NCBI GenBank assembly: GCA_001464895.1
Contig: LNEE01000012.1
Coordinates: 1 to 64,000, forward strand
From: Betaproteobacteria bacterium Ga0077532
GTDB lineage: Bacteria > Pseudomonadota > Gammaproteobacteria > Burkholderiales > Ga0077523
Length of the DNA: 64,000 nucleotides
Reading direction: 5' to 3'
The notes under the pieces were generated by a model that was not told the origin of the DNA, did not search any database, and was given only the letters and a program-made list of their open reading frames with translations. This document shows, one piece after another, positions 4,470 through 34,376 of the stretch (positions are counted from its first letter, which is position 1; the number at the start of each line of letters is the position of its first letter). Position numbers and translations under genes: made by a program.

Positions 4470-4556
4470 TTCCGCAGTCCGCCCGGCTCCGCGTCCCCCG
4501 CTTCGATGGCGCTACACTCCGGGCAACCTGATGCCGCGGGCTTCCCGCCACTGCCG

Positions 4557-5189
4557 ATGCCCCGCATTCACCCCGCCCACGGGGTCTTCCTCGCCGCGTT
4601 TCTCATCGTGCTCGCCTGGTCGGGCATCGGTCCGAAGGATCGCCTCACCTGGTTCCTCGAAGTGGTGCCCGGCATGGCGGGCGCGGTCGCCCTCGTCTGG
4701 CTGTATCCGCGGCATCGTCTGACGACGCTCGTCTACGGCCTCATCAGCCTGCACGCCATCGTCCTGTGCGTGGGCGGGCACTACACCTACGCGGAGGTGC
4801 CTGCGTTCGACTGGCTGCGTGACCGCTTCGGTCTGGACCGCAACTACTACGATCGGGTGGGTCATTTCATGCAGGGATTCGTGCCGGCCATGATCGCCCG
4901 CGAGATCCTCATCCGCGCCGAGGTCGTCCGGGGCACGCGTTGGCTGTTCTTCCTCGTGACGTGCGTGTGCCTCGCCATCAGTGCGTTCTACGAGTTGATC
5001 GAATGGTGGGTCGCGGTGGCGAGCGGCACGGCCGCCGAAGCCTTCCTGGGAACTCAGGGGGATGTCTGGGACACCCAGTGGGACATGTTCATCGCATTCG
5101 TCGGCGCGATGGTCGCGCAGTGGACTCTCGCGCGATGGCATGATCGGGCGATCGACGTGCTTGGCGTCGGGCCACGGCGCGCGCCGTGA
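4557..5189 (+). CDS. YjdF-like DUF2238 inner-membrane protein
   Basis: 210 aa from the ATG at 4557; an upstream in-frame ATG at 4506 would sit before a -10-like TACACT (4513-4518), so the later start is preferred. It has about six hydrophobic segments and the family-typical region DRNYYDRVGHFMQGFVPAMIAREI followed by SAFYELIEWWVA and the GTQGDVWDTQWDM segment. These conserved His/Glu/Asp residues mark DUF2238/YjdF proteins, whose function is unknown. It lies 16 bp upstream of the soxC-like gene, so may be transcribed with it. Confidence 0.85.
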   Translation: MPRIHPAHGVFLAAFLIVLAWSGIGPKDRLTWFLEVVPGMAGAVALVWLYPRHRLTTLVYGLISLHAIVLCVGGHYTYAEVPAFDWLRDRFGLDRNYYDRVGHFMQGFVPAMIAREILIRAEVVRGTRWLFFLVTCVCLAISAFYELIEWWVAVASGTAAEAFLGTQGDVWDTQWDMFIAFVGAMVAQWTLARWHDRAIDVLGVGPRRAP

Positions 5190-5205
5190 TCCCGGAGGAG
5201 GAGGC

Positions 5206-6513
5206 ATGAGAGGTACACGATACGGACCCGGGGTTCTGACCCGGTTTGCGAACGTCAGCGATCCGATCCCCGTCGCGGGGGGCGGGCTGCTGTCCAGGCG
5301 GGCGCTGTTGAAAGGCGCGATGGTGATGGGTGCGGGTGCGGCCCTTCCAGCCACCGCCGCCAACGAGCATCTCGGCGCCGCGATGGCGTGGCAGAAAACA
5401 CCCGGCCGACCGCCCACGGGCTATGGCAATCCGTCCCGGTTCGAGAGTGCGGTCACGCGCACGACCTACAACCGCTACGGTGCCATCGCGCTCGGCAATG
5501 GCGGCTCGTTCACGCCGCTCGAGCGACTGCGCGGCACCATCACGCCGAACGGCCTGCACTTCGAGCGCCATCACCAAGGCGTACCGGACATCGACCCTGC
5601 GAAGCATCGCCTCGTCGTGCATGGCCTCGTCCGGCGTCCGCTCCGGTTCTCGATCGATGCGCTCGGGCGCTATCCGATGACGAGCACCACGGCCTTCATC
5701 GAATGCGCGGGCAACAGTTTCCCGAACACGAACGACAAGCCACCCCAGGTGACCTGCGGCGAGATCCACGGACTCGTGTCGTGCAGCGAATGGACCGGGG
5801 TCCCGCTGGCGATGCTGCTGGAAGAGGCCGGGGTCCGGACCGACGCGAAGTGGATCGTGGCCGAGGGTGCGGATGCGGTGTCGATGCATCGGTCCATCCC
5901 GATCGAGAAGGCCCGCGACGATGCCCTCGTGGCGCTGTACCAGAACGGTGAGCGGCTTCGGCCGGAGCAGGGCTATCCCGTGCGCCTGCTGCTCCCGGGC
6001 TGGGAAGGCAACATGTCCGTGAAGTGGCTGCATCGCCTCGAACTCGTGACGGCCCCGGTCCAGGCCCGCGACGAGACCTCCCACTACACCGATGCGCTGC
6101 CCGATGGCCGTGCGCTCCAGTTCACCTTCGAGATGGGTGTGAAGTCCGTCATCACGCAGCCCTCGCCCGGTTGGATGCTGCAGGGGCCCGGCTATTACGA
6201 CATCTCGGGTCTCGCGTGGAGCGGGGCGGGGCATGTCGCGAGGGTGGATGTCTCGGCCGATGGTGGCCGTACGTGGGCGCAGGCAGAGCTTCTCGAGACC
6301 GCCCAGCCCTTCGCGTTCACGCGCTTCCGATTGCCTTGGCGATGGGACGGCGGGCCGGTCCGCCTGATGAGCCGCGCCATGGACGAGCGCGAGCAGATCC
6401 AGCCGACGCGCGCGGAGTGGCTGCAACGCTACGGCGCAAAGCAGCGCTACCACTATCACGCCATCCAGACCTGGCAGGTGGACGACATGGGCGAGGTGTC
6501 GAATGCCTACTGA
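5206..6513 (+). CDS. soxC: SoxC-like molybdenum sulfite/sulfane dehydrogenase subunit
   Basis: 435 aa, started at the ATG at 5206 behind a GGAGGAGGAGG ribosome site. A twin-arginine signal (SRRALLKGA, Arg31-Arg32) sends the folded molybdoprotein to the periplasm. The sulfite-oxidase fold follows, with the molybdenum-ligand cysteine in FIECAGNS (about Cys167) and the C-terminal Mo-cofactor dimerisation domain (from about 325). The family oxidises sulfite or the sulfane sulfur of the SoxYZ carrier, passing electrons to a cytochrome c. Its partner cytochrome overlaps by 11 bp. No soxXYZAB genes are in this window, so free sulfite or another sulfur substrate is possible. Confidence 0.85.
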   Translation: MRGTRYGPGVLTRFANVSDPIPVAGGGLLSRRALLKGAMVMGAGAALPATAANEHLGAAMAWQKTPGRPPTGYGNPSRFESAVTRTTYNRYGAIALGNGGSFTPLERLRGTITPNGLHFERHHQGVPDIDPAKHRLVVHGLVRRPLRFSIDALGRYPMTSTTAFIECAGNSFPNTNDKPPQVTCGEIHGLVSCSEWTGVPLAMLLEEAGVRTDAKWIVAEGADAVSMHRSIPIEKARDDALVALYQNGERLRPEQGYPVRLLLPGWEGNMSVKWLHRLELVTAPVQARDETSHYTDALPDGRALQFTFEMGVKSVITQPSPGWMLQGPGYYDISGLAWSGAGHVARVDVSADGGRTWAQAELLETAQPFAFTRFRLPWRWDGGPVRLMSRAMDEREQIQPTRAEWLQRYGAKQRYHYHAIQTWQVDDMGEVSNAY

Positions 6514-21863: not shown

Positions 21864-21878
21864 GCACCGGGTTGGTGC
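21864..21878 (+). promoter_or_regulatory. NtrC-type dyad upstream of biuH
   Basis: GCACCGGGTTGGTGC fits the NtrC consensus GCAC-N7-GTGC, including the preferred C and G flanking the centre. Its centre (21871) is about 127 bp upstream of the predicted sigma-54 start at 21998, a normal enhancer distance. A weaker half site follows at 21894. Confidence 0.65.
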
Positions 21879-21971
21879 CCACGCGTGGCGATTGCACCAC
21901 AAGCGTCATGGGGATGCCAACCCAAGGAGGTGGCTCCCGGGGCACGGGGGGCCGGACAACTGCCGTTGCGA

Positions 21972-21987
21972 TGGCATGTGCATTGCG
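21972..21987 (+). promoter_or_regulatory. Sigma-54 (-24/-12) promoter for biuH operon
   Basis: TGGCATGTGCATTGCG matches the consensus TGGCAYRNNNNTTGCW at every fixed position except the final W, with the correct 10 bp between GG and GC. The predicted start is near 21998, leaving a leader of about 80 nt to the biuH ATG. Confidence 0.72.
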
Positions 21988-22080: not shown

Positions 22081-22770
22081 ATGGCTGACACCCGTCGGTT
22101 CGTTGCCGCCGACCCGTATCCGTGGCCATTCGATGGCGGACTGCGTGCCGACAACACCGCGCTCGTCGTCATCGACATGCAGACGGACTTCTGCGGCATC
22201 GGTGGTTACGTCGACACGATGGGCTACGACCTCTCGCTCACGCGCGCGCCGATCGAACCGATCCGGGCACTGCTGACAGCGATGCGTGCCGGGGGATACA
22301 CGATCATCCACACCCGCGAAGGCCATCGACCGGACCTCTCGGATCTCCCCGCGAACAAGCGCTGGCGGTCGCAGCGGATCGGCGCCGGCATCGGCGATCC
22401 GGGGCCGTGCGGACGCATTCTCGTCCGCGGCGAACCCGGGTGGGAGATCATCCCGGAACTCGCGCCCCTGCCCGGCGAGGTCGTGATCGACAAGCCGGGC
22501 AAGGGCTCCTTCTGTGCGACCGACCTCGAACTGGTCCTGCGCACGCGCGGCATCACGAATCTCATCCTGACCGGCATCACCACCGACGTCTGCGTGCACA
22601 CGACCATGCGCGAAGCGAACGACCGGGGCTTCGAGTGCCTGATCCTCGCCGACTGCACTGGCGCCACCGATCATGGCAACCATCTCGCCGCGTTGAAGAT
22701 GGTCACGATGCAGGGTGGGGTCTTCGGTGCCGTTTCGACTTCCGCAGCAGTGATCGAGGCGATCGGTTGA
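22081..22770 (+). CDS. biuH: Biuret amidohydrolase BiuH (isochorismatase-like)
   Basis: 229 aa. Cysteine hydrolase fold with the triad Asp36 (IDMQTDF), Lys in IDKPGKGSF (138 or 141) and Cys171 ([17 protein letters not shown]). The whole chain, including the N-terminal [10 protein letters not shown], the [23 protein letters not shown]-like stretch and GVFGAVS, follows the Rhizobium biuret hydrolase pattern as I remember it rather than other isochorismatases. It splits biuret to allophanate/carboxy-urea products and ammonia. The downstream atzG-atzE-atzH genes strongly support the assignment. Confidence 0.88.
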
Positions 22771-22846: not shown

Positions 22847-23032
22847 ATGATCTCCGACACTTCGCTGGACGAGTACGTCGCCGCAGCCGCCGGTCTGCAA
22901 GGCTTCGCGCTCGACGCTGACCAGCTGGCCCGCGTGCAGGCCGTGTTCCGCCGGAACGCCGCCATCGCGGAACTCGTGATGGGCTTCGATCCCGGCGAGT
23001 CGGCCGAGCCTGCACCGCAGTTCCGCCCATGA
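22847..23032 (+). CDS. atzG: AtzG, small partner subunit of AtzE (DUF4089)
   Basis: 61 aa from the ATG at 22847. A short helical protein of the DUF4089 type (LDEYVAAAAGLQGFALDADQLARVQAVFRRNAAIAELVMGF). Related AtzG is a GatC-like helical partner needed for folding and assembly of the amidase AtzE. The stop overlaps the atzE ATG by 4 bp, so translation is probably coupled, as expected for a stoichiometric complex. Confidence 0.87.
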   Translation: MISDTSLDEYVAAAAGLQGFALDADQLARVQAVFRRNAAIAELVMGFDPGESAEPAPQFRP

Positions 23033-24423
23033 GCGCCACGTCCCCACGTTCCGCGCTCGCCATTGCGGCGGCCGTCGCACGCGGTGAGACCACGGCGATG
23101 GCCGAGGTCGAGGCCGCACTCGCACGGATCGCCGCCGGCGATGGCGTCATCAACGCCTTCACCGCGGTCACCGCAGATCGCGCCCGCCACGAGGCGACGC
23201 TCGTCGATCAGCGGCGCGCGCGCGGCGAGAAGCTGCCGCCGCTCGCGGGGGTCCCGTTCGCCGTGAAGAACCTCTTCGACGTGGCCGGCTTGCCGACGCT
23301 CGCGGGCTCGCGTTTGCACGAACGGCGACCCGTCGCCGATTGCGATGCGGTGCTGGTTGCACGCATGCAGGCGGCCGGCGCCGTGCTGGTCGGAGCCCTC
23401 AACATGGACGCGTACGCGTACGGGTTCACGACCGAGAACACCGGTTACGGGCCCGCGCGCAATCCGCACGACACGTCGCGGACCGCCGGTGGTTCGTCGG
23501 GCGGATCGGCCGCAGCCGTCGCGGCGGGCATGGTCCCCATCACGCTCGGCTCCGACACCAACGGATCGATCCGCGTGCCGTCATCGCTGTGCGGCGTGTT
23601 CGGGTTGAAGCCGACGTACGGCCGGTTGTCGCGCACGGGCAGCTATCCGTTCGTCGCCAGTCTCGATCATCTCGGCCCCTTCGCCACCGACGTCGCGGAT
23701 CTCGCCGCCAGCTACGACGCCATGCAGGGGCCGGATGCCGCGGATCCGGCGTGTGGGCAAAGATCCGCCGAACTTGTCTCGCCAGGGCTCGGCCGCGATG
23801 CCGATGTGCCTTTGCGCGTGGCACGGCTGTGCGGCTACTTCGACAGGTGGGCTTCCGCCGCGGCGAGGGCGGCATCGATGCGGGCGGCCGAGGCGCTCGG
23901 GGCGCATCGCACGATCGAACTCCCCGAAGTCGAGCGCGCCCGCGCAGCCGCGTTCGTGATCTCGGCAGCCGAAGGCGGCGCGCTGCATCGCGCAACGCTG
24001 CAGCGCGACTACGACCGGTTCGAGCCGCACAACCGGGACCGCTTCCTGGCCGGGGCGTTGACGCCGGCCAGTTGGTACGTGCAGGCGCAGAAGACCCGGG
24101 CGTGGTTCGCCGAACAGGTCCGCGCGATCTTCGCAGACGTTGATGTCCTCGTCGCGCCTGCCACCCCGGTGGCGGCCACGCTGCTCGGGGAGGAATGGGT
24201 GGAGTTGGGCGGCGAGCGACTGCCGCTGCGGCCGAGCCTGGGTCTCTTCACACAGCCGATCTCGTGCATCGGCCTCCCGGTGGCGGCGGTACCGATCGTC
24301 GGTGCGGGCCTGCCCCTCGGGGTGCAACTGATCGCGGCGCCGTGGCGGGAGGATCTCTGCCTCAGGGCTGCGCTGCAACTCGAACGCGCGGGCATCGCCC
24401 GCTGTGACATCGCCGGAGGATGA
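23029..24423 (+). CDS. atzE: AtzE 1-carboxybiuret hydrolase (amidase signature)
   Basis: 464 aa. The Ser-cisSer-Lys triad of the amidase signature family is visible: Lys80 ([10 protein letters not shown]), Ser156 in [12 protein letters not shown] and nucleophile Ser180 (SDTNGS). The context (biuH before, atzG overlapping, atzH after) identifies it as AtzE, which deaminates 1-carboxybiuret to 1,3-dicarboxyurea in the cyanuric acid/biuret route, rather than GatA. The N-terminus has the typical [21 protein letters not shown] helix. Confidence 0.9.
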
Positions 24424-24427
24424 GCGC

Positions 24428-24814
24428 TTGGAACTGAACCTGCCCCACGTCGTCGCGGAAATGACCGAGGCCTTCGCACGCTACGAGGCGGCGCTGACCA
24501 GCAACGACGTTGCCGTTCTCGACGAACTGTTCTGGAACAGCCCGCTGACGCTGCGCTACGGGATCACCGAGAACCTCTACGGCTACGAGGCGATCGCCGC
24601 GTTCCGTTCCGGGCGATCGTCCCTTGGTCTCGCTCGCACCATCCGCAATACGGTGATCACCACCTACGGCGAGGACTTCGCGACGGCCAACACGGAGTTC
24701 CTCCGACCACCCGGCCCGCGCATCGGACGCCAGAGCCAGACCTGGGTGCGGATGCCCGAGGGCTGGCGGGTGGTGTCGGCGCACGTGAGCTACATGGACA
24801 TGCCGGTGGCCTGA
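24428..24814 (+). CDS. atzH: AtzH/HpxZ-like DUF3225 protein (1,3-dicarboxyurea decarboxylase-type)
   Basis: 128 aa from a TTG at 24428 preceded by GGAGG with a 7-base spacer; a GTG at 24404 is in frame but lacks that spacing and would overlap atzE. The sequence [35 protein letters not shown], then [18 protein letters not shown], is the NTF2-like AtzH/HpxZ pattern. AtzH decarboxylates 1,3-dicarboxyurea to allophanate. The allophanate hydrolase AtzF is not in this window. Confidence 0.86.
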
Positions 24815-24876
24815 TCGATGGGGGTGCCGCACCGGTCGAGGGTAGACTGACGACACACCGTCCAGAGGAGTTGTGC

Positions 24877-25515
24877 ATGTCTCAGTCCGCAGTGCCCGAA
24901 CCGGGTTCCGACGCCGTCCTCAACCCTGTCCGCATGCCCGTCCGGGTGCTCGTGTTCGCCGGCAGTCTGCGGACGGCATCCTTGAACAAGAAGCTCGCGC
25001 GCCTCGCTGCCGAAGTGGTGCGCGAGTCCGGCGCCGACGCCACGTTCATCGATCTGAAGGACTACCCGCTGCCGGTGTACGACGGCGATCTCGAGTCGGC
25101 GTCTGGACTGCCCCCTAACGCGCGGAAGCTGAAGGATCTCTTCATCGCCCACGACGCCTTCGTCATCGCCTGCCCGGAGTACAACGCGGGGATCACCGGG
25201 GCGCTCAAGAATGCGATCGACTGGGTCTCCCGACAGGATGGTGACGAGGCCGGCACGGTGCCCTACGACGGCAAGGTCGTGGGGTTGTGTTCGGCAGCCG
25301 GTGGCGTGATGTTCGGCATCCGTGCGATGGAGATGTTGAGAGGCATCCTGATGAATCTCGGCTGCCTCGTGGTGCCGAAGCGGCTGGGAGTGCCGCGCGC
25401 GAGTCAGGCCTTCGACGCGGCCGACCGGCTCACGGATCCCGGGCAGATCGCGACGCTCGTGGCCACCGTGCAGCAGGTGGTCCGGGTGGCCGCCGCACTG
25501 CGTACGGGCACCTGA
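24877..25515 (+). CDS. NADPH-dependent FMN reductase family protein
   Basis: 212 aa from the ATG at 24877 behind AGAGGAG; a TAGACT -10-like box is at 24843-24848. Flavodoxin-like fold with the FMN phosphate loop GSLRTASLNKKLA and the family motif PEYNAGITGALKNAIDW. Members include azoreductases, chromate reductases and quinone reductases (YieF/ChrR-like); the native substrate cannot be read off. It follows atzH by 62 bp but probably has its own promoter. Confidence 0.88.
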   Translation: MSQSAVPEPGSDAVLNPVRMPVRVLVFAGSLRTASLNKKLARLAAEVVRESGADATFIDLKDYPLPVYDGDLESASGLPPNARKLKDLFIAHDAFVIACPEYNAGITGALKNAIDWVSRQDGDEAGTVPYDGKVVGLCSAAGGVMFGIRAMEMLRGILMNLGCLVVPKRLGVPRASQAFDAADRLTDPGQIATLVATVQQVVRVAAALRTGT

Positions 25516-25564
25516 GGGTCGGGGCGTGCCGTCAGCCCCATAGTTGTGCGGGTGGCGTGTCTGG

Positions 25565-25579
25565 GCACGCAGGTGGTGC
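25565..25579 (+). promoter_or_regulatory. NtrC-type dyad upstream of Anbu operon
   Basis: GCACGCAGGTGGTGC keeps the GCAC-N7-GTGC frame of NtrC enhancers. Its centre (25572) is about 113 bp upstream of the predicted sigma-54 start (about 25685). The inner flanks are less ideal than at biuH. Confidence 0.5.
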
Positions 25580-25591
25580 TCCGCAACATGA

Positions 25592-25651
25592 AATGTAAAA
25601 CATTAACAATCTCTTGCAGGATTCTGATAATGAAAAATAAAACAAGAGATT
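25592..25651 (+). promoter_or_regulatory. AT-rich dyads and possible sigma-70 promoter before Anbu operon
   Basis: An AT-rich island stands out in the GC-rich sequence. It holds the perfect dyad AATGT-AAA-ACATT (25592-25604) and an inverted repeat AATCTCTTG (25608-25616) / CAAGAGATT (25643-25651). A TTAACA (25603-25608) and GATAAT (25626-25631) are 17 bp apart, which would make a sigma-70 promoter. The island could equally be a DNA-bending region between enhancer and sigma-54 promoter. Confidence 0.5.
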
Positions 25652-25658
25652 CCATGGG

Positions 25659-25674
25659 TGGCACATGGGTTGCA
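25659..25674 (+). promoter_or_regulatory. Perfect sigma-54 promoter for Anbu operon
   Basis: TGGCACATGGGTTGCA matches TGGCAYRNNNNTTGCW at every fixed position with correct GG-to-GC spacing. The predicted start is near 25685, followed by an AGGGAG ribosome site (about 25691) and the GTG at 25703. Confidence 0.75.
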
Positions 25675-25702
25675 CCACAGATGTGCAGACAGGGAGATCC
25701 GT

Positions 25703-27133
25703 GTGCCTAACGCCATGACGTACGCCGCCAATTTCAACGAGATGTACACCTCCGACGGCACCGTCCGAAAGCACTACACCGGTGTCGCCGAATGGATCGC
25801 TGCCACGTCCCCGGACCGCATCCGGCAGATGCGCGAAGCCGCCAACATGCTGTTTCACCGCGTCGGGATCACCTTCGCGGTGTACGGCGAAGAGGCTGGC
25901 GCCGAGCGCCTCATCCCGTTCGACATGCTTCCGCACATCATCCCCGGCGAGGAATGGCGGAAGCTCGAGCGGGGGCTGCGCCAACGGGTGCAGGCGCTCA
26001 ACGCGTTCCTGAAGGACGTCTACCACGGCCAGGAGATCCTTCGGTCCGGCCGCATTCCGGCCGATCGCGTCCTGCAGAACAAGCTGTATCGCCCCGAGAT
26101 GGTGGACGTCGAGGTGCCGGGAGGCGTGTATGCGCACATTGCCGGCATCGACCTGGTCCGGGCCGGGGCGGGCGAGTACTACGTCCTCGAGGACAATCTC
26201 CGCACACCGTCGGGCGTCTCGTACATGCTCGAGAACCGCAAGATGATGATGCGGCTCGTGCCCGAACTCTTCTCGCAGCAGTCGGTCGCGCCGGTCGAGC
26301 ACTATCCCGACCTTCTGCTCGACACGCTGCGGTCCGTCGCGCAACCGCAGGTCGAGAACCCGACGGTCGTGCTGCTCACGCCAGGGCAGTTCAACAGTGC
26401 GTACTTCGAGCACGCGTTCCTCGCCCAGCAGATGGGCATCGAACTCGTCGAGGGGGCCGATCTGTTCGTCGACGACGACGACACGGTCTACATGCGGACG
26501 ACGCACGGTCCCCAGCGGGTGGACGTCGTCTATCGTCGCATCGACGACGATTTCCTGGATCCCGAGGTGTTCCGATCGGACTCCGTGCTGGGCGTGAAGG
26601 GCCTCGTGCGGGCGTTCCGCGCCGGCCGCGTCACGCTCTGCAATGCCGTGGGCACCGGGATCGCGGACGACAAATCGATCTATCCGTTCGTCCCCGAGAT
26701 GATCCGCTTCTATCTCGGCGAGGAGCCGCTGCTGAACAACGTGCCGACGTATCAGCTGCGGAATCGCGAGGATCTCGAATACACCCTTGCCCACCTGCCG
26801 GAGCTGGTGGTGAAGGAGGTCCACGGGTCGGGTGGCTACGGGATGTTGATCGGGCCCACCAGCACAGAGCGGGAGCGGGACGCCTATCGTCTGCGAATTC
26901 TCGATTCGCCCGAGAACTTCATCGCGCAGCCCACGCTTTCCCTTTCCACCTGCCCGATCTTCGTGGAGCAGGGCGTCGCACCGCGGCACATCGATCTCCG
27001 CCCGTTCGTGCTCTCGGGTAAGGAGATCGTGATGTGCCCGGGCGGCCTCACACGCGTGGCTCTCCGCGAGGGGTCGCTGGTCGTCAACTCGTCCCAGGGT
27101 GGCGGCACGAAAGACACATGGGTGCTCGAATGA
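25703..27133 (+). CDS. Circularly permuted ATP-grasp protein (DUF404/DUF407)
   Basis: 476 aa from the GTG at 25703, six bases after the AGGGAG site; the ATG at 25715 would be too far from it. Family blocks include PFDMLPHIIPGEEWRKLERGLRQR, LVRAGAGEYYVLEDNLRTPSGVSYMLENR, DVVYRRIDDDFLDP, VKEVHGSGGYGM and FVEQGVAPRHIDLRPFVL. These are the circularly permuted ATP-grasp ligases (COG2308) predicted to form amide or peptide bonds. It is the first gene of an Anbu-type operon and is expected to modify a peptide or small amine together with the next gene. Confidence 0.9.
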   Translation: MPNAMTYAANFNEMYTSDGTVRKHYTGVAEWIAATSPDRIRQMREAANMLFHRVGITFAVYGEEAGAERLIPFDMLPHIIPGEEWRKLERGLRQRVQALNAFLKDVYHGQEILRSGRIPADRVLQNKLYRPEMVDVEVPGGVYAHIAGIDLVRAGAGEYYVLEDNLRTPSGVSYMLENRKMMMRLVPELFSQQSVAPVEHYPDLLLDTLRSVAQPQVENPTVVLLTPGQFNSAYFEHAFLAQQMGIELVEGADLFVDDDDTVYMRTTHGPQRVDVVYRRIDDDFLDPEVFRSDSVLGVKGLVRAFRAGRVTLCNAVGTGIADDKSIYPFVPEMIRFYLGEEPLLNNVPTYQLRNREDLEYTLAHLPELVVKEVHGSGGYGMLIGPTSTERERDAYRLRILDSPENFIAQPTLSLSTCPIFVEQGVAPRHIDLRPFVLSGKEIVMCPGGLTRVALREGSLVVNSSQGGGTKDTWVLE

Positions 27134-27227
27134 TGCGTGCGCCAGATGCGGCCGAAGCGGTGCCTGTCTCAGGCCCGCTGACCGCCGCCCAACCCCACTC
27201 CTGTCGAACGTCCGAAAGCCGAATCCG

Positions 27228-28187
27228 ATGCTGAGCAGAACCGCAAGCAACCTCTACTGGATGGCCCGCTACGTCGAGCGCGCGGAGAACACCGCGCGGA
27301 TGCTCGACGTCACCTATCGCATGTCGCTCGTGCCGAAGGATCCGCGCCTCGCGGATCAGGAGTGGTTCGCGCCGCTCAACATCACCGGCACGCTGTACCC
27401 GTTCGGCGGCCGATACAGTCAGGTGAACGCCACCGGCGTCATGCGCTACATGGTGCTCGACCCCGATAATCCCTCGAGCATCTACTCGTGCGCCCGTGCG
27501 GCACGCGAGAATGCACGGGCTGTGCGAGGGAGCATCACCTCCGAGATGTGGGAGGTCATCAACGGCACCTGGCTGGAGGTGCAGCGCTTGTCGGAGGAGC
27601 GCATGGCCTCCGATCGCGTGGTCGATTTCTTCGAGTGGGTGAAGGAACGGTCGCACCTGTTCCGCGGCGTGACGGTGGGGACGATGCTGCGCGACGAGGC
27701 GTTCCACTTCAACCGCCTCGGTACCTTCATGGAGCGCTCCGACAACACGGCGCGCATCCTCGACGTGAAGTACCACGTGTTGCTTCCGTCGGTGGACGAC
27801 GTCGGTGGTGCCGTCGACTATTACCAGTGGGCCGCCGTCCTGCGTTCGGTGTCGTCGTTCGAGTCGTACCGGAAGGTGTACCGGGACGTCATCGCGCCGC
27901 TCAAGGTGGCGGAGCTCCTGATCCTCCGCGCCGACATGCCGCGCAGCCTCCATGCGTGCATGAACGAGGTGTACGACATCCTGCAGCACATCTGCGGGCC
28001 CGGCGAACAGGAGGCCCTCCGGATCGCGGGCGAGATGCACGCAGCCCTCCACTACGGGCGGATGGACATCCTCTTCGCCTACGGTCTGCATGAGTACCTC
28101 ACCGAGTTCCTGCAGCGGGTGCACGAACTGGGCGGCGAGATCAACCGCGCGTTCTTCGCCGTGGACACGCGCCGGTTGGCCGCGTGA
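27228..28187 (+). CDS. Alpha-E domain protein (COG2307)
   Basis: 319 aa, all-helical, beginning MLSRTASNLYWMARYVERAENTAR, the classic alpha-E start. A second similar arginine/glutamate motif RLGTFMERSDNTARILD lies in the middle, followed by AELLILRADMPRSLHACMNEV. Alpha-E proteins accompany circularly permuted ATP-grasp enzymes in nearly all such clusters and probably form part of the same ligase complex; no activity is established. It lies 94 bp after the ATP-grasp gene. Confidence 0.9.
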   Translation: MLSRTASNLYWMARYVERAENTARMLDVTYRMSLVPKDPRLADQEWFAPLNITGTLYPFGGRYSQVNATGVMRYMVLDPDNPSSIYSCARAARENARAVRGSITSEMWEVINGTWLEVQRLSEERMASDRVVDFFEWVKERSHLFRGVTVGTMLRDEAFHFNRLGTFMERSDNTARILDVKYHVLLPSVDDVGGAVDYYQWAAVLRSVSSFESYRKVYRDVIAPLKVAELLILRADMPRSLHACMNEVYDILQHICGPGEQEALRIAGEMHAALHYGRMDILFAYGLHEYLTEFLQRVHELGGEINRAFFAVDTRRLAA

Positions 28188-28250
28188 CGGCGACCGCCGA
28201 ACTGGCTACAGTCGTGGCCTTCACACAAGACCAACAGTCAGGGACGGATC

Positions 28251-28985
28251 GTGACGTACTGCGTAGCCTTGCTGCTCGACTCGGGCATGCTCTTCGCCTC
28301 CGACTCGCGGACCAACGCGGGCGTGGACCACATCGCCACGTTCTGCAAGATGAAGGTCTACGAGAAGAAGGACGACCGCGTGATGGTGCTGCTGTCGTCC
28401 GGCAACCTTGCGATGACGCAGGGCGTGACCAACATCCTCGACCGGCACGCGAAGGCGGAACCGGGTCGAGAGACCATCTGGACCGCGACCAGCATGTACG
28501 ACGTCGCGAACATCGTGGGGGATGCGTTGCGCGAGATGCAGCGGCGCGATGGTCCGTACCTGATGCAGAGCAATGTCGACTACAGCGCGACACTGGTGCT
28601 CGGCGGGCAGATCAAGGGCGAGGAACCTCGGCTCTTCAACATCTACTCGCAGGGCAACTTCATCGAAGCGACACCCGAGAACCTCTACTTCCAGGTGGGC
28701 GAGAGCAAGTACGGCAAGCCCGTGATCGATCGCGTGGTCACCAGCGCCACGCCGATGGCGGAAGCGGCGAAATGCGTGCTGATCTCCTTCGATTCGACGA
28801 TCCGCTCGAACATCTCCGTCGGTCTGCCGATCGATGTGCTGTGGTACCCGCGGGACTCCCTGCGTGTGGGCATCCATCGTCGCATCGGCGAGGGCGATCC
28901 GTACTTCACGATGTTGCGCCAGGGTTGGGGCGGCGGTCTGCGCCGCGTGTTCGGCGAGCTGCCCAATCCCGACTGGGTGTCCTGA
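28251..28985 (+). CDS. Anbu / bacterial proteasome homologue peptidase
   Basis: 244 aa from a GTG at 28251. After Met removal the chain starts TYCVALLLDSGMLFASDSRTN: Thr1 is the expected N-terminal nucleophile, Asp17 is in place and Lys32 is close to the usual Lys33 position. This is Anbu (ancestral beta subunit), a proteasome/HslV relative that forms open helical or ring assemblies. Substrates are unknown. Its position between the ligase genes and a transglutaminase is the standard cluster arrangement. Confidence 0.9.
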   Translation: MTYCVALLLDSGMLFASDSRTNAGVDHIATFCKMKVYEKKDDRVMVLLSSGNLAMTQGVTNILDRHAKAEPGRETIWTATSMYDVANIVGDALREMQRRDGPYLMQSNVDYSATLVLGGQIKGEEPRLFNIYSQGNFIEATPENLYFQVGESKYGKPVIDRVVTSATPMAEAAKCVLISFDSTIRSNISVGLPIDVLWYPRDSLRVGIHRRIGEGDPYFTMLRQGWGGGLRRVFGELPNPDWVS

Positions 28986-29112
28986 GTCGGACCGTTTTCC
29001 AGGCCTCGGCATCCCGCGATGCATCGTTCGTCGAACATGCCTGTCCGAAGCCGTTCGGTCGCCTGACCTTCATCACGCGGCCGGGTGCGGGCTTCGGGTG
29101 CCCGCTGCGCTG

Positions 29113-29130
29113 CTGTGCGGTTGCGCACAG
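29113..29130. other. Intergenic hairpin between Anbu and transglutaminase genes
   Basis: CTGTGCG-GTTG-CGCACAG, a perfect 7-bp stem, lies in the 234-bp gap before the transglutaminase gene. No U tract follows, so it is not a simple terminator; it may tune read-through or mRNA processing. The rest of this gap shows nothing else I can name. Confidence 0.45.
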
Positions 29131-29219
29131 ACCCCCCGTGTCCACGGCAGTCATCCTCTTCGTTCCCGACGCCTAGCGCCGAACGCCCCACGTCGAACGT
29201 CCAGACTCAGAAGTCCACC

Positions 29220-32200
29220 ATGACCATCCGCGTCGCCCTCTATCACGAGACCCACTACCGGTTCGATCGGCCCGTGAACCTCACGCCGCACGAGGTGCGA
29301 CTGCGGCCCGCGGCCCACTGCCGGACGCCCATCGAGAGCTACTCGCTGCGGGTCAGCCCGGCGAAGCATTTCTTGAACTGGCAGCAGGATCCCTACGGCA
29401 ACTTCGTGGCGCGACTCGTCTTTCCCGAGAAGACCCGCGAATTGAAGATCGTCGTGGATCTCGTCGCCGACATGACGGTCATCAACCCGTTCGACTTCTT
29501 CCTCGAGAAGAGCGCGGAGCACGTGCCCTTCGAGTACACCGATGTCACACGGCGCGAGTTGGCGCCCTTCCTCGAGACGGACCCGCTGACGCCGCAGCTC
29601 GCTGCGTGGGTCGAGAAGTACAGGCGCGAGCGGCTGTCGTCGCCGGTCGCCACCGTCGACATGCTCGTCGATCTGAACCAGCGCGTGCAGCAGGCGGTGA
29701 GCTACATCGTCCGCCTCGAGCCGGGTGTGCAGACGCCGGAGGAGACCCTCTCCAAGGGCAGCGGCTCGTGCCGCGATTCCGGTTGGTTGCTCGTTCAGAT
29801 CCTGCGGCACCTTGGACTTGCGGCCCGTTTCGTCTCCGGCTATCTCGTGCAGCTCACTGCCGACATCAAGGCGATCGACGGTCCTGCAGGCCCCGCGGCC
29901 GACTTCACGGATCTTCACGCCTGGGCCGAAGTGTTCCTGCCCGGCGCCGGTTGGGTCGGGCTCGATGCGACGTCGGGTCTCATGGCGGGCGAGGGGCACA
30001 TCCCGCTCGCGGCCACCGCGCAGCCATCGAGCGCCGCCCCGGTCACGGGGTTCACCGATGTCTGCGAAGTGACCTTCGGTTTCCGCATGGAAGTCACGCG
30101 GGTCCACGAGGATCCGCGCGTGACCCGGCCGTACACCGAGGCGCAGTGGGAACGCATCGACGCCCTGGGGGAGTCCGTCGAGACGCAACTGGCTGCCCAC
30201 GATGTCCGTCTCACGATGGGTGGCGAGCCGACGTTCGTCTCGGCCGACGACATGGACGGCGTCGAGTGGAACTTCACCGCGCTCGGCGACCGCAAGCGCG
30301 AACTGGCGGGGGACCTCTTGCTGCGCCTGCGCGATCGCTTCTCGACCGGCGCGATGCTCTATCACGGTCAGGGCAAGTGGTACCCGGGCGAGCCGCTGCC
30401 GCGCTGGGCGCTCGGCGTGCTGTGGCGGGCAGACGGCGTCCCGCTCTGGAACGATCCGTCACTGCTCGCCGGCGATCGCAAGGGTGCTGCCAGCGCAACG
30501 GACGCCGAGCGGTTCAGCCAGACCCTGTGCGGGCTGCTCGGGCTCCCGACCCGGCGGCTGGTGCCGGCCTATGAAGACATCTGGGCGGCCGTGACCGACG
30601 AGGCCCGCCTGCCGGCGAACGTCGATCCGCTGGAGCGCGATCTCGCCACGGCGGCGGGTCGTTCCAGTCTCGCGAAACTCCTCGACAACGCGCTCGGCCA
30701 GGTGAAGGGCTGGGTGCTGCCGCTGGCGCCGGCGGCGACGGCGCCGGGATGGCAGAGTTCCGCGTGGCCCCTGCGCCGCGAGCATCTCTATCTCGTCGGC
30801 GGCGATTCGCCCATCGGCTATCGGCTGCCGCTCGGCTCGCTGCCCTGGCAGGCGCCGGAGGACGAGGAGGTCATCGTCCACCCCGACCCGTTCGACGAAC
30901 GCAAGCCGCTGCCGACGAGCCTCCTGCATCCCGTGGAAGTTCAGGAGAGCGAATCGGCCTCGCCCGTCGTGCGCCCCGTGATCAAGACGGCGCTCTGCGT
31001 GGAGGTCCGCGATGGCGTCGTCAACGTGTTCCTGCCGCCGCTCTCGACGCTCGAGCAGTACGTGACCCTCGTGGCCCGCATCGAGGAAGCTGCCGCGCGC
31101 ACCCGACTGCCGGTCCGGATCGAAGGCTATCTACCCCCGGCCGATCCGCGGCTGACAAGACTCTTCGTCACGCCGGACCCGGGCGTGATCGAGGTCAACG
31201 TGCATCCCGCGCCGAACTGGCGTCAGCTCGTCGACAACACCCGGACCCTCTACGAGGAGGCACGCCTCACGCGCCTCTCGACCGAGAAGTTCATGCTCGA
31301 TGGCAAGCACACGGGCACCGGGGGCGGCAATCACGTGACGATAGGCGGTGCCACCCCCGTCGACAGTCCGCTGCTGCGGCGTCCGGATCTCCTGCGCAGC
31401 CTCATCGCCTACTGGCAGAACCACCCCGCGCTCTCGTACCTGTTCTCGGGCATGTTCATCGGTCCGACGAGCCAGGCACCGCGTGTCGACGAGGCGCGGG
31501 ACGACAGCCTTTACGAGCTATCGATCGCCTTCGACGAGATGGCCCGCCAGACCAAGGCCGGTGAGGAGACCGTCGCGCCGTGGCTGGTCGATCGCCTGTT
31601 GCGCAACCTGCTGGTGGACGTCACCGGGAACACGCACCGCGCCGAGTTCTCCATCGACAAGCTCTATTCGCCCGACGGCGCCACCGGGCGTCTCGGCCTG
31701 CTGGAGTTCCGCGCGTTCGAGATGCCGCCGCACTGGCAGATGAGCGCCGTGCAACTGCTGCTCCTGCGCACGCTCGTCGCGCGCTTCTGGCGCACGCCGT
31801 ACGAGGGCGATCTCGTCGATTGGGGCACCAGCCTCCACGACCGTTTCATGCTGCCGCATTTCGTCGCGCAGGACATGGAGGACGTCGTGGCGGACCTCAA
31901 CGCTGCCGGCTATGCGTTCGAGGTGGAGTGGTTCGCGCCATTCTTCGAGTTCCGGTTCCCGCGGTTCGGGACCGTGGTCTACCAGGGCATCGAGCTGGAG
32001 GTGAGGCAGGCGCTGGAACCGTGGCACGTCATGGGTGAGGAGACACAGGCGGGCGCCACGACGCGCTACGTCGACTCCTCGGTCGAGCGCGTGCAGGTCA
32101 AGGTGCGCCACATGCACGGGCACCGTTTCGCGCTCCTGTGCAACGGCCGGCCGGTGCCGCTGGCACCGACCGGCACGCGCGGCGAGTACGTTGGGGGAGT

Positions 32201-32558
32201 GCGCTACAAGGCATGGTCTCCGCCCGCTGCACTGCACCCGACCATCGGCGTCCACACGCCGCTGGTCTTCGACCTCTACGACACGTTCGCCGGCCGGGCC
32301 GTGGGCGGTTGCAGTTATCACGTGATGCACCCCGGTGGTCGCAACTATCAGCGATTCCCCGTGAACGCCAACGAGGCCGAGGCCCGGCGGGTCGCCCGCT
32401 TCCAGGCGATGGGCCACACGCCTGGTCCCATGCCGTACCGGCCCGAGCAGTCCAGTCCGCAGTTCCCTCTCACGCTGGATCTACGCAGACGCCCCGACTA
32501 CGGCGTCGGCATTCCCGTGACGGCGACGCAGGCGATCCAGTCGCAGCAACAGCAGTAG
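29220..32558 (+). CDS. Transglutaminase-DUF2126 fusion protein
   Basis: 1112 aa from the ATG at 29220. N-terminal bacterial transglutaminase-like domain (about 1-320) begins RVALYHETHYRFDRPVNLTPHEVRLRP and has the Cys-His-Asp triad: about Cys184 in GSCRDSGW, His233 in LHAWAEV and Asp249 in GLDATSG. The remainder is DUF2126 (about 330-1100), with TMGGEPTFVS, GKHTGTGGGNHVTIGG and HPAPNWRQL, features reminiscent of a glutamine-synthetase/ATP-dependent ligase-like fold. The fusion is the usual last member of Anbu clusters and may cleave or transfer the amide bonds made by the ATP-grasp enzyme. Confidence 0.88.
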   Translation: MTIRVALYHETHYRFDRPVNLTPHEVRLRPAAHCRTPIESYSLRVSPAKHFLNWQQDPYGNFVARLVFPEKTRELKIVVDLVADMTVINPFDFFLEKSAEHVPFEYTDVTRRELAPFLETDPLTPQLAAWVEKYRRERLSSPVATVDMLVDLNQRVQQAVSYIVRLEPGVQTPEETLSKGSGSCRDSGWLLVQILRHLGLAARFVSGYLVQLTADIKAIDGPAGPAADFTDLHAWAEVFLPGAGWVGLDATSGLMAGEGHIPLAATAQPSSAAPVTGFTDVCEVTFGFRMEVTRVHEDPRVTRPYTEAQWERIDALGESVETQLAAHDVRLTMGGEPTFVSADDMDGVEWNFTALGDRKRELAGDLLLRLRDRFSTGAMLYHGQGKWYPGEPLPRWALGVLWRADGVPLWNDPSLLAGDRKGAASATDAERFSQTLCGLLGLPTRRLVPAYEDIWAAVTDEARLPANVDPLERDLATAAGRSSLAKLLDNALGQVKGWVLPLAPAATAPGWQSSAWPLRREHLYLVGGDSPIGYRLPLGSLPWQAPEDEEVIVHPDPFDERKPLPTSLLHPVEVQESESASPVVRPVIKTALCVEVRDGVVNVFLPPLSTLEQYVTLVARIEEAAARTRLPVRIEGYLPPADPRLTRLFVTPDPGVIEVNVHPAPNWRQLVDNTRTLYEEARLTRLSTEKFMLDGKHTGTGGGNHVTIGGATPVDSPLLRRPDLLRSLIAYWQNHPALSYLFSGMFIGPTSQAPRVDEARDDSLYELSIAFDEMARQTKAGEETVAPWLVDRLLRNLLVDVTGNTHRAEFSIDKLYSPDGATGRLGLLEFRAFEMPPHWQMSAVQLLLLRTLVARFWRTPYEGDLVDWGTSLHDRFMLPHFVAQDMEDVVADLNAAGYAFEVEWFAPFFEFRFPRFGTVVYQGIELEVRQALEPWHVMGEETQAGATTRYVDSSVERVQVKVRHMHGHRFALLCNGRPVPLAPTGTRGEYVGGVRYKAWSPPAALHPTIGVHTPLVFDLYDTFAGRAVGGCSYHVMHPGGRNYQRFPVNANEAEARRVARFQAMGHTPGPMPYRPEQSSPQFPLTLDLRRRPDYGVGIPVTATQAIQSQQQQ

Positions 32559-32741
32559 GCGCGCCGCCGATACTTCGTTGCCCTGCACGGTCGCCCTCCA
32601 TTCCGGGTGACGTCTGCCGTAAATGCTTCGGTCATGCGCAGCCACGCCCGTTCCTGGGGCCGCTGCGCCTCGAAGAGTGGCGGGTCTCAGCGTGAAGCCC
32701 GCCGGCAGGCTCCGCCTCTGCGGAGCACGGGAGATCGAAAC

Positions 32742-34376
32742 ATGGGGCGTCGAATGGGTATCCGCTCGCTGTTGCTCAGGATGGCACTACTGCCGGTGAT
32801 CGGCAGCCTCGCGATGGGCGGCGCGGGTCTGGTCGGATTGGCAACGATAGAGCGATCGGCAGCTGGTGTCGGACTCGGCAAGGACGTCGTGGCCGACATC
32901 CTGCCGCCACCGCTGTATGTGATCGAGGCGCGGCTTCAGGTGTCGCTTGCGGTGGAGGCCAGGTCTGCCGCCGATCGTGACGCGGCGATCGGCACACTCG
33001 AGCGGCTCGAATCCGAGTTCGCTGCCCGGCGCAGCTATTGGGAAGGCGTTGCGTTCGAGCCGGCACTGAAAGCCTCACTCCTCGGTGCCCAGACTGTCGA
33101 GGCGGCCCGGTTCTTCGAACTGCTCCACGAGGCGTTTCTCCCCGCAGCGAAGCGTGGGGATGCCGCCGCCATGGAGGCGGCTCGCGAACAGCTTCATGGC
33201 CTGTACCTCGCGCATCGTCAGGGTGTCGACCAGACCGTCGTTCTCGGCAACCGCTTTGCGGCGGCCAACGAAGCGGCCCTCTCTGGCGCTGCGTCCGGGG
33301 TCCGATGGACCTTTCTCGTCTTTCTGGTGCTGGGCGTCGCAACGGCAGTGGCCGTCGGTCTCCATGGCACCCGGGTCATCCTTCGCCGACTCGGTGCGGA
33401 ACCGGCGGTCGTGGTTGCAGCTGCGGAGCGCTTGGCGCAGGGCGACTTCACCCGTCCGGTCGGGGAAGCGCCCGCAGGCAGCCTGACCGAGGCATTCGGT
33501 CGGATGCACGTCCGGCTCGCGGCACTCCTCCACTCCGTCGTCGAGTCCATCGATCCGTTGTCGTCCGCCACCCGCGTGCTCTCACGGCACGCTGCGGAAG
33601 CACGGGAGCGTCATCGGACGCTGGCCGACCAGGCTGCCGAGACCACCGGACTCCTGAGCGCTATGGGGCGCTCGGCCATGGCCATCGGGGAGTCCGCGAG
33701 CGAGGCAGGTACCGTGGCCCGGGATGCTGCGGGGCTCGCGACCGAGGCCGATCTCGCCCTGGGCCGCCTCGAGTCATCGCTGCAGGCTTCCGTCCAGGCG
33801 TCGGACGCCGTGGTGAACGACATGGAGGTGCTGCACCGGGAGATCGGGCGTGCCGAGGCGCTTGCGTCGGATGTACGCAAGGTGGCGGAGCAGACCAATC
33901 TTCTCGCGCTGAATGCCGCCATCGAGGCGGCGCGGGCCGGGGAGAGCGGTCGTGGTTTTGCGATCGTCGCGGACGAGGTGCGCAAGCTTGCGCTCCGTGC
34001 TTCCAAGGCGAGCGAGGGCATCAGTGGGACCCTGGCTGACTTGAACCAACGCGCGGATGGCGTGCGTTCGACGGTGGGGAGTGCTGCCCAACGGGTCACC
34101 GATGCGCGGGAGGAGACCGATCGGACCGCCGCCCTGGTCGCCCGCGTGGCGGAAGGCGCGAACCGGTCCCAGGGTCTGGCGCACGCCATCGAGGTCACGC
34201 TGGCGGAGCACGCCAGCGCCGTCGAACTGGCCCAGCGGCACGCGGAGGCGTCGGCCGAAGTGGCGGCTGCCGGCGTCGAGATGGCCGACAGCGTCGATGC
34301 GGAAGTGAGCCGGATCGAAGGGCAGGCGCGGGAACTGGCGGAGGTCGGCGCCAGGTTCAGACTCGCCGCGGCGTGA
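32742..34376 (+). CDS. Methyl-accepting chemotaxis protein
   Basis: 544 aa from the ATG at 32742. Two transmembrane helices (about 10-32 and 185-207) bracket a helical periplasmic sensor domain of about 150 residues. A HAMP-like linker and a coiled-coil signalling domain follow. The invariant hairpin tip is present ([21 protein letters not shown], about 380-400, then [15 protein letters not shown]). It relays ligand state to CheA/CheW; the ligand is unknown. No che genes are nearby, and it sits beside the hpa cluster, so an aromatic attractant is conceivable but unsupported. Confidence 0.9.

Follow-up and report, generated by a model that had tools for sequence, protein, structure and literature searches.

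What switches on the operons that carry Anbu, a proteasome-like Ntn hydrolase which, like its partner enzymes, has solved structures and no known substrate or product? The question is raised by a 64,000-nucleotide stretch of DNA (G000:C12:1-64000; hereafter the window), on whose plus strand four genes follow one another in the order circularly permuted ATP-grasp protein (cpATP-grasp), alpha-E protein, Anbu and transglutaminase-DUF2126 protein. The source genome comprises 4.93 Mb in 62 contigs with an estimated completeness of 89.8% and, among the matches listed, the nearest named ones to the window are assemblies from metagenomes, with the labels Pseudomonadota, Betaproteobacteria or Burkholderiales. 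Our sequence comparisons, together with published data on homologous operons, indicate that this four-gene operon very probably belongs to the NtrC/sigma-54 nitrogen-starvation regulon.

Just upstream of the ATP-grasp gene lies a candidate sigma-54 promoter, TGGCACATGGGTTGCA, whose GG at 25660-25661 and GC at 25672-25673, 10 bp apart, place the predicted transcription start near 25685, and AGGGAG at 25691-25696 precedes the GTG start codon at 25703. The first-pass annotation had placed this element at 25659-25674 and an NtrC-type dyad around 25572, 113 bp from the start, and had noted a ribosome site ahead of the GTG, all of which hold; two further dyads, at 25535-25549 and 25672-25686, were missing from its list. 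Its description of the sigma-54 match as perfect is correct for TGGCAC-N5-TTGCW but not for the sigma-54 consensus TGGCACG-N4-TTGCW, against which the site scores 11/12. The consensus is printed as GGcacg-N4-ttGC in PMC5491218. The element is made up of two near-identical tandem 11-mers, CATGGGTGGCA and CATGGGTTGCA (25653-25674). Between enhancer and promoter there is also an inverted repeat, AATCTCTTG/CAAGAGATT, at 25608-25651 with its arms 26 nt apart.

Since motif counts alone were not decisive, conservation upstream of orthologues was used as the deciding evidence, in a scan of orthologous clusters for both motifs that the first-pass annotation had itself proposed. The upstream set consisted of 105 deduplicated ATP-grasp orthologues, the window's included, drawn from closest-match lists (30 loci and the best 80 of at least 589) rather than sampled at random; five rows were removed manually because their contigs had been found twice, and L002 and L005 were removed because they are the window itself. 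Start positions of the orthologues were assigned from homology to the window's protein, and offsets are hence approximate. A sigma-54 element with a score of at least 10/12 between -85 and +4 of the start was found in 59/105 upstream regions from these best-match lists, compared to 1/105 on the reverse strand, 0/102 in a distal stretch and a mean of 0.70 (maximum 3) in 60 shuffles, which preserve dinucleotides but not the relatedness of these non-independent loci (several are from Pandoraea, for instance). With a relaxed threshold (score 9, within 100 bp) the count was 72/105, and all 14 deduplicated loci with protein identity above 79% carry the element at a score of at least 9/12. When the 173 ATP-grasp proteins from all sets were placed on a FastTree tree, the element (present for 111 of them) required 23 changes between presence and absence, as against a mean of 50.9 when the labels were shuffled 500 times (minimum 41), and every member of a 23-member clade around the window has it. 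A phylum-wide sample supplied 56 further loci, two from the order of the window, and in 25 of the 56 a site of score 10 or more lies within 130 bp (controls: 0 on the reverse strand, 1 in a distal stretch). A site of at least 9 within 130 bp occurs in only one of the 15 loci L170-L184; no such site was found for the ATP-grasp copies of Sinorhizobium meliloti (L198) and Azospirillum (L204), nor any of at least 9 in the 400 bp upstream of four plasmid-borne copies from outside Pseudomonadota (Deinococcus, Tsukamurella, Hymenobacter and Granulicella). We regard conservation upstream of orthologues as decisive for the reality of the predicted promoter motifs.

The enhancer was recovered without prior assumption: when the DNA upstream of the element was screened for gapped palindromes in an unguided search, GCAC-N7-GTGC ranked first, at 29/64 loci (mean 0.6 and maximum 3 in 100 shuffles), and the second-ranked palindrome, CACC-N5-GGTG, is part of the same motif. 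Dyads matching at least 9/10 of GCACC-N5-GGTGC are present at 46 of the 72 element-bearing loci (shuffles 1.6, maximum 5) and those matching at least 8/10 at 63 (shuffles 16.5, maximum 26). A cooperating pair of NtrC sites is expected at a spacing of around two or three helical turns. The 43 dyad pairs lying within 70 bp of one another show preferred spacings, with 9 at 20-22 bp, 15 at 30-33 bp and none at 23-29 bp (0.09, 0.17 and 0.19, respectively, in shuffles), although these classes were named after the spacings had been seen and 19 of the 43 pairs fall outside both, for example at 41 bp (3), 35 bp (2) and 46 bp (2). The proximal dyad in the window, GCACCACAGATGTGC, which overlaps the -12 element and the predicted start, is perhaps a site limiting transcription.

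Both regulators are encoded in the genome: RpoN (PF04552, 6e-64) and a single protein above the curated NtrC cut-off (714 bits versus 558.6). The composite of a dyad, then 65-95 bp and then a sigma-54-like element occurs nine times in the genome versus once for the control, and five of the eight besides that of the Anbu operon precede nitrogen genes, including classical ones: glnA near ntrC; a porin gene followed by those for P-II (glnK) and an ammonium transporter (amtB); a glutamine-synthetase-domain gene; a gene for an NMT1-type binding protein followed by a second glutamine-synthetase-domain gene; and the biuret amidohydrolase (BiuH) gene in the window. The remaining three are a PP2C phosphatase locus (C29) and two hits, C51 and C61, without an assigned nitrogen gene. 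In the window's genome and 59 relatives (60 genomes in all), composite matches number 179 versus 22 for the control, and many single ones may be due to chance.

These elements suggest how the operon would be switched on. Upon nitrogen limitation, phosphorylated NtrC would bind to the dyads beginning at 25535 and 25565, about 30 bp apart, and loop to RNA polymerase-sigma-54 at the promoter, and transcription from near 25685 would then proceed through the cpATP-grasp, alpha-E, Anbu and transglutaminase-DUF2126 genes. For the source organism itself we infer NtrC binding, this start site and the nitrogen response.

Two published systems are of direct relevance. In Burkholderia cenocepacia H111, NtrC and sigma-54 share the target I35_5080-83, a cluster made up of DUF404/407 and DUF403 genes and two transglutaminase-like ones, which is down 6.0- to 9.4-fold in an ntrC mutant (PMC5491218); this operon is likely homologous to that of the window. 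Our B. cenocepacia locus L208, from another strain, has the I35_5080-83 gene order, from which we infer that it is the same locus, and carries a sigma-54 element (11/12) and a perfect dyad (10/10), but differs from the window in lacking an Anbu match and in having an ATP-grasp protein 58% identical to the window's. Another ATP-grasp copy in the same record, L197, is closer to the window's and has no sigma-54 site. In Pseudomonas putida, an operon of the same type (PP_2685-2688: Anbu, transglutaminase, an unnamed protein and cpATP-grasp), in which the transglutaminase is separate, is raised by nitrogen limitation or nitrate (PMC7801951, PMC8050072, PMC3325844). NtrB/NtrC is named as its regulator in PMC7801951, citing Hervas and colleagues, and PMC5666114 and PMC6376114 cite the P. 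putida nitrogen induction for Anbu. The nitrogen-limitation trigger is therefore already in print for two species, as nitrogen limitation or nitrate in P. putida and as NtrC/sigma-54 control in B. cenocepacia, and the remark in the first-pass annotation that the physiological trigger is unclear no longer reflects the literature; its assignment of a sigma-54 promoter with an NtrC enhancer answering to nitrogen limitation draws strong support from the comparative evidence and the published homologous operons alike. In the literature searched, of which coverage was partial, we found no comparative study of this promoter, nor its breadth or its independence from Anbu (see below) in print.

Several observations weigh against assigning the operon to this regulon. 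Either motif taken alone is at chance, with exact TGGCACN5TTGCW found 3 times in the genome versus 2 for a reversed-pattern control, and the GCAC-N7-GTGC dyad 5 times in the window versus 3.07 expected. In 33/105 upstream regions there is no element within 100 bp even when a score of 9 is accepted, and loci of Caballeronia, Massilia and Herbaspirillum are among those without it. In a P. putida rpoN mutant PP_2686-2688 were still up 14- to 20-fold under nitrogen limitation and urtA-D were likewise still induced, while PP_2685 (Anbu) was hardly raised in the wild type (1.12; PMC7801951, Table 2), and PMC5666114, in a summary of other conditions, describes constitutive moderate expression. Finally, an A+T-rich stretch of the window holds a sigma-70-like match, TTAACA-17-GATAAT (25603-25631, 10/12), which could itself drive the operon, with the inverted repeat perhaps as an operator and sigma-54 in a minor role. 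Matches of this quality occur once in 1 kb versus 0.2 in shuffles, the inverted repeat is the single such pair in the genome and is retained in the sister species, and the induction retained in the P. putida rpoN mutant (PMC7801951) would fit such an arrangement. The sister species, however, whose protein is 98% identical, has GAAATT as the -10-like hexamer, for which reason we rank the sigma-70 match low, and an identical sigma-54 element; moreover, the sigma-54 element is widespread, whereas of the 208 loci retrieved only the window's copies and that of the sister have the inverted repeat. We therefore consider it unlikely that sigma-70 is the main driver.

The promoter might instead depend on sigma-54 but respond to an enhancer-binding protein other than NtrC. 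Places matching the NtrC model number 64 in the genome, below or above the cut-off, and five further matches, which cover most of the model and score 329-434 bits, indicate that the genome encodes other sigma-54 activators; besides, 26/72 loci with the promoter have no strong dyad (all below 9/10). Against this, the dyad that emerged on top of the unguided search is of the NtrC type, the same composite is found at glnA beside ntrC and at the porin-glnK-amtB genes, and NtrC dependence has been published for the B. cenocepacia cluster (PMC5491218). A different activator thus appears very improbable, even more so than a sigma-70 promoter, and control by NtrC and sigma-54 is the reading that we retain.

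Assignment of the four genes themselves, made earlier from the sequence, is confirmed by Pfam and solved-structure matches (Table 1). The cpATP-grasp and alpha-E genes are adjacent and a transglutaminase-like gene is present, by which we recognise the module. The Anbu protein aligns with five different solved chains that bear the name Anbu or peptidase (5loy, 5nyw, 5nyj, 5nyf and 5lox) and, once Met is removed, has the N-terminal Thr1 together with Asp17 and Lys32 (Asp17 and Lys32/33 being looked for); its match to PF00227 is weak (0.003, under the family cut-off). The transglutaminase-DUF2126 protein has Cys, His and Asp motifs that we take to be catalytic.

Does the promoter follow Anbu? Downstream DNA of at least 3.5 kb was available for 74 loci; with Anbu scored within 3.5 kb, 35 of them have both promoter and Anbu, 19 the promoter without Anbu, 14 Anbu without the promoter and 6 neither. 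The promoter is hence present in 35/49 loci with Anbu versus 19/25 without, and so does not follow Anbu, which suggests that the regulated unit is the ligase core and not Anbu. We see an even chance that NtrC/sigma-54 control is an old, broadly kept trait of the cpATP-grasp/alpha-E core in Pseudomonadota rather than of Anbu, that this core regularly belongs to the nitrogen-starvation regulon, with Anbu as an optional add-on, and that the module provides a starvation-time amide-bond cycle freeing or re-routing nitrogen, here beside an NtrC-controlled biuret/ureide cluster.

As to function, the operon enzymes fall in predicted amide-forming families (cpATP-grasp and the DUF2126 'putative amidoligase'). 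In the Anbu operons of Pseudomonas aeruginosa and Yersinia bercovieri, which are of the same type and whose Anbu structures have been solved, the ATP-grasp protein releases phosphate from ATP (PMC5666114, PMC6376114), and Anbu peptidase activity was absent on the substrates tested (PMC6376114). In marine metagenomes these domains are linked with urea metabolism domains (PMC3597751). Membership of amide-forming families would be compatible with synthesis of a nitrogen-storage peptide, one of the roles suggested in the first-pass annotation, but nitrogen starvation would be an ill-suited time for laying down a store of nitrogen, and the genes sharing the composite are for uptake, assimilation and hydrolysis, making storage an unlikely role. 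Because the genes under the same switch serve nitrogen uptake, assimilation or release, we favour amide-bond turnover in starvation and propose, tentatively, that the operon enzymes make and cleave amide bonds and thereby mobilise or recycle nitrogen, as the adjacent ureide hydrolases would. The conserved starvation switch tells when to look for their product, namely under nitrogen limitation, and the comparative survey shows which lineages have the switch and which do not, so that a search by comparative metabolomics or peptidomics becomes practical in a cultivable relative.

Table 1. Predicted genes and regulatory elements of the Anbu operon and the neighbouring biuret cluster in the window.
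Feature	Position	Strand	Evidence or remarks
Second composite: dyad 21864-21878 and sigma-54-like ATGGCATGTGCATTGC 21971-21986	21864..21986	+	motif match
Biuret amidohydrolase (BiuH), ATG start	22081..22770	+	NF050097 2e-129
AtzE-family amidohydrolase	23029..24423	+	NF006631 2e-205
AtzH-like / HpxZ protein	24404..24814	+	PF11533 9e-59; NF033625 1.7e-60
NADPH-dependent FMN reductase-like gene, between the two operons	24871..25515	+	PF03358 4e-42
Weak second NtrC-type dyad GCCCCATAGTTGTGC, 30 bp from main dyad	25535..25549	+	8/10 of GCACC-N5-GGTGC
Main NtrC-type dyad GCACGCAGGTGGTGC, centre 25572, 113 bp upstream of inferred start	25565..25579	+	exact GCAC-N7-GTGC
Candidate sigma-54 -24/-12 promoter TGGCACATGGGTTGCA, start inferred near 25685	25659..25674	+	motif match; kept in near loci
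Dyad GCACCACAGATGTGC overlapping -12 element and inferred start	25672..25686	+	NtrC-type; right half GTGC at same offset in 5/14 near loci
Circularly permuted ATP-grasp, GTG start	25703..27133	+	PF14403 4e-164; solved relative 3n6x 2e-210
Alpha-E protein, ATG 27228, start by homology	27228..28187	+	PF04168 3.5e-104
Anbu, proteasome-like Ntn hydrolase, GTG start	28251..28985	+	solved Anbu 5loy 3.1e-93; Thr1/Asp17/Lys32 kept
Transglutaminase-DUF2126 protein, start by homology	29220..32558	+	PF09899, PF08379, PF01841; Cys/His/Asp motifs

Two candidates were rejected in delimiting the operon. An open frame at 28184-29176 was discarded as a gene, having no Pfam family, while 28251-28985 in another frame matches solved Anbu. 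A chemoreceptor gene at 32607-34376 has the same direction as the operon, and a search for a terminator between the two found none; it was not retained as a member, as none of the other loci listed (at least 5 kb, matches over 30% of the query) had a match to the chemoreceptor.

The composite preceding the BiuH gene lies 3.7 kb upstream of the Anbu-operon promoter, and in the sister genome G006 both composites are present, close together. From these elements the window appears to hold two adjacent operons of the same presumed regulon. A short frame at around 22847-23032, in the biuret cluster, we take to be possibly an AtzG-like protein. Published data on biuret are not in simple agreement with a shared regulon, as mutation of ntrC in B. 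cenocepacia improved growth on this compound (PMC5491218). In locus L162, a PP2C-type phosphatase gene (4507-5337, minus strand) is found behind a dyad and sigma-54 composite.

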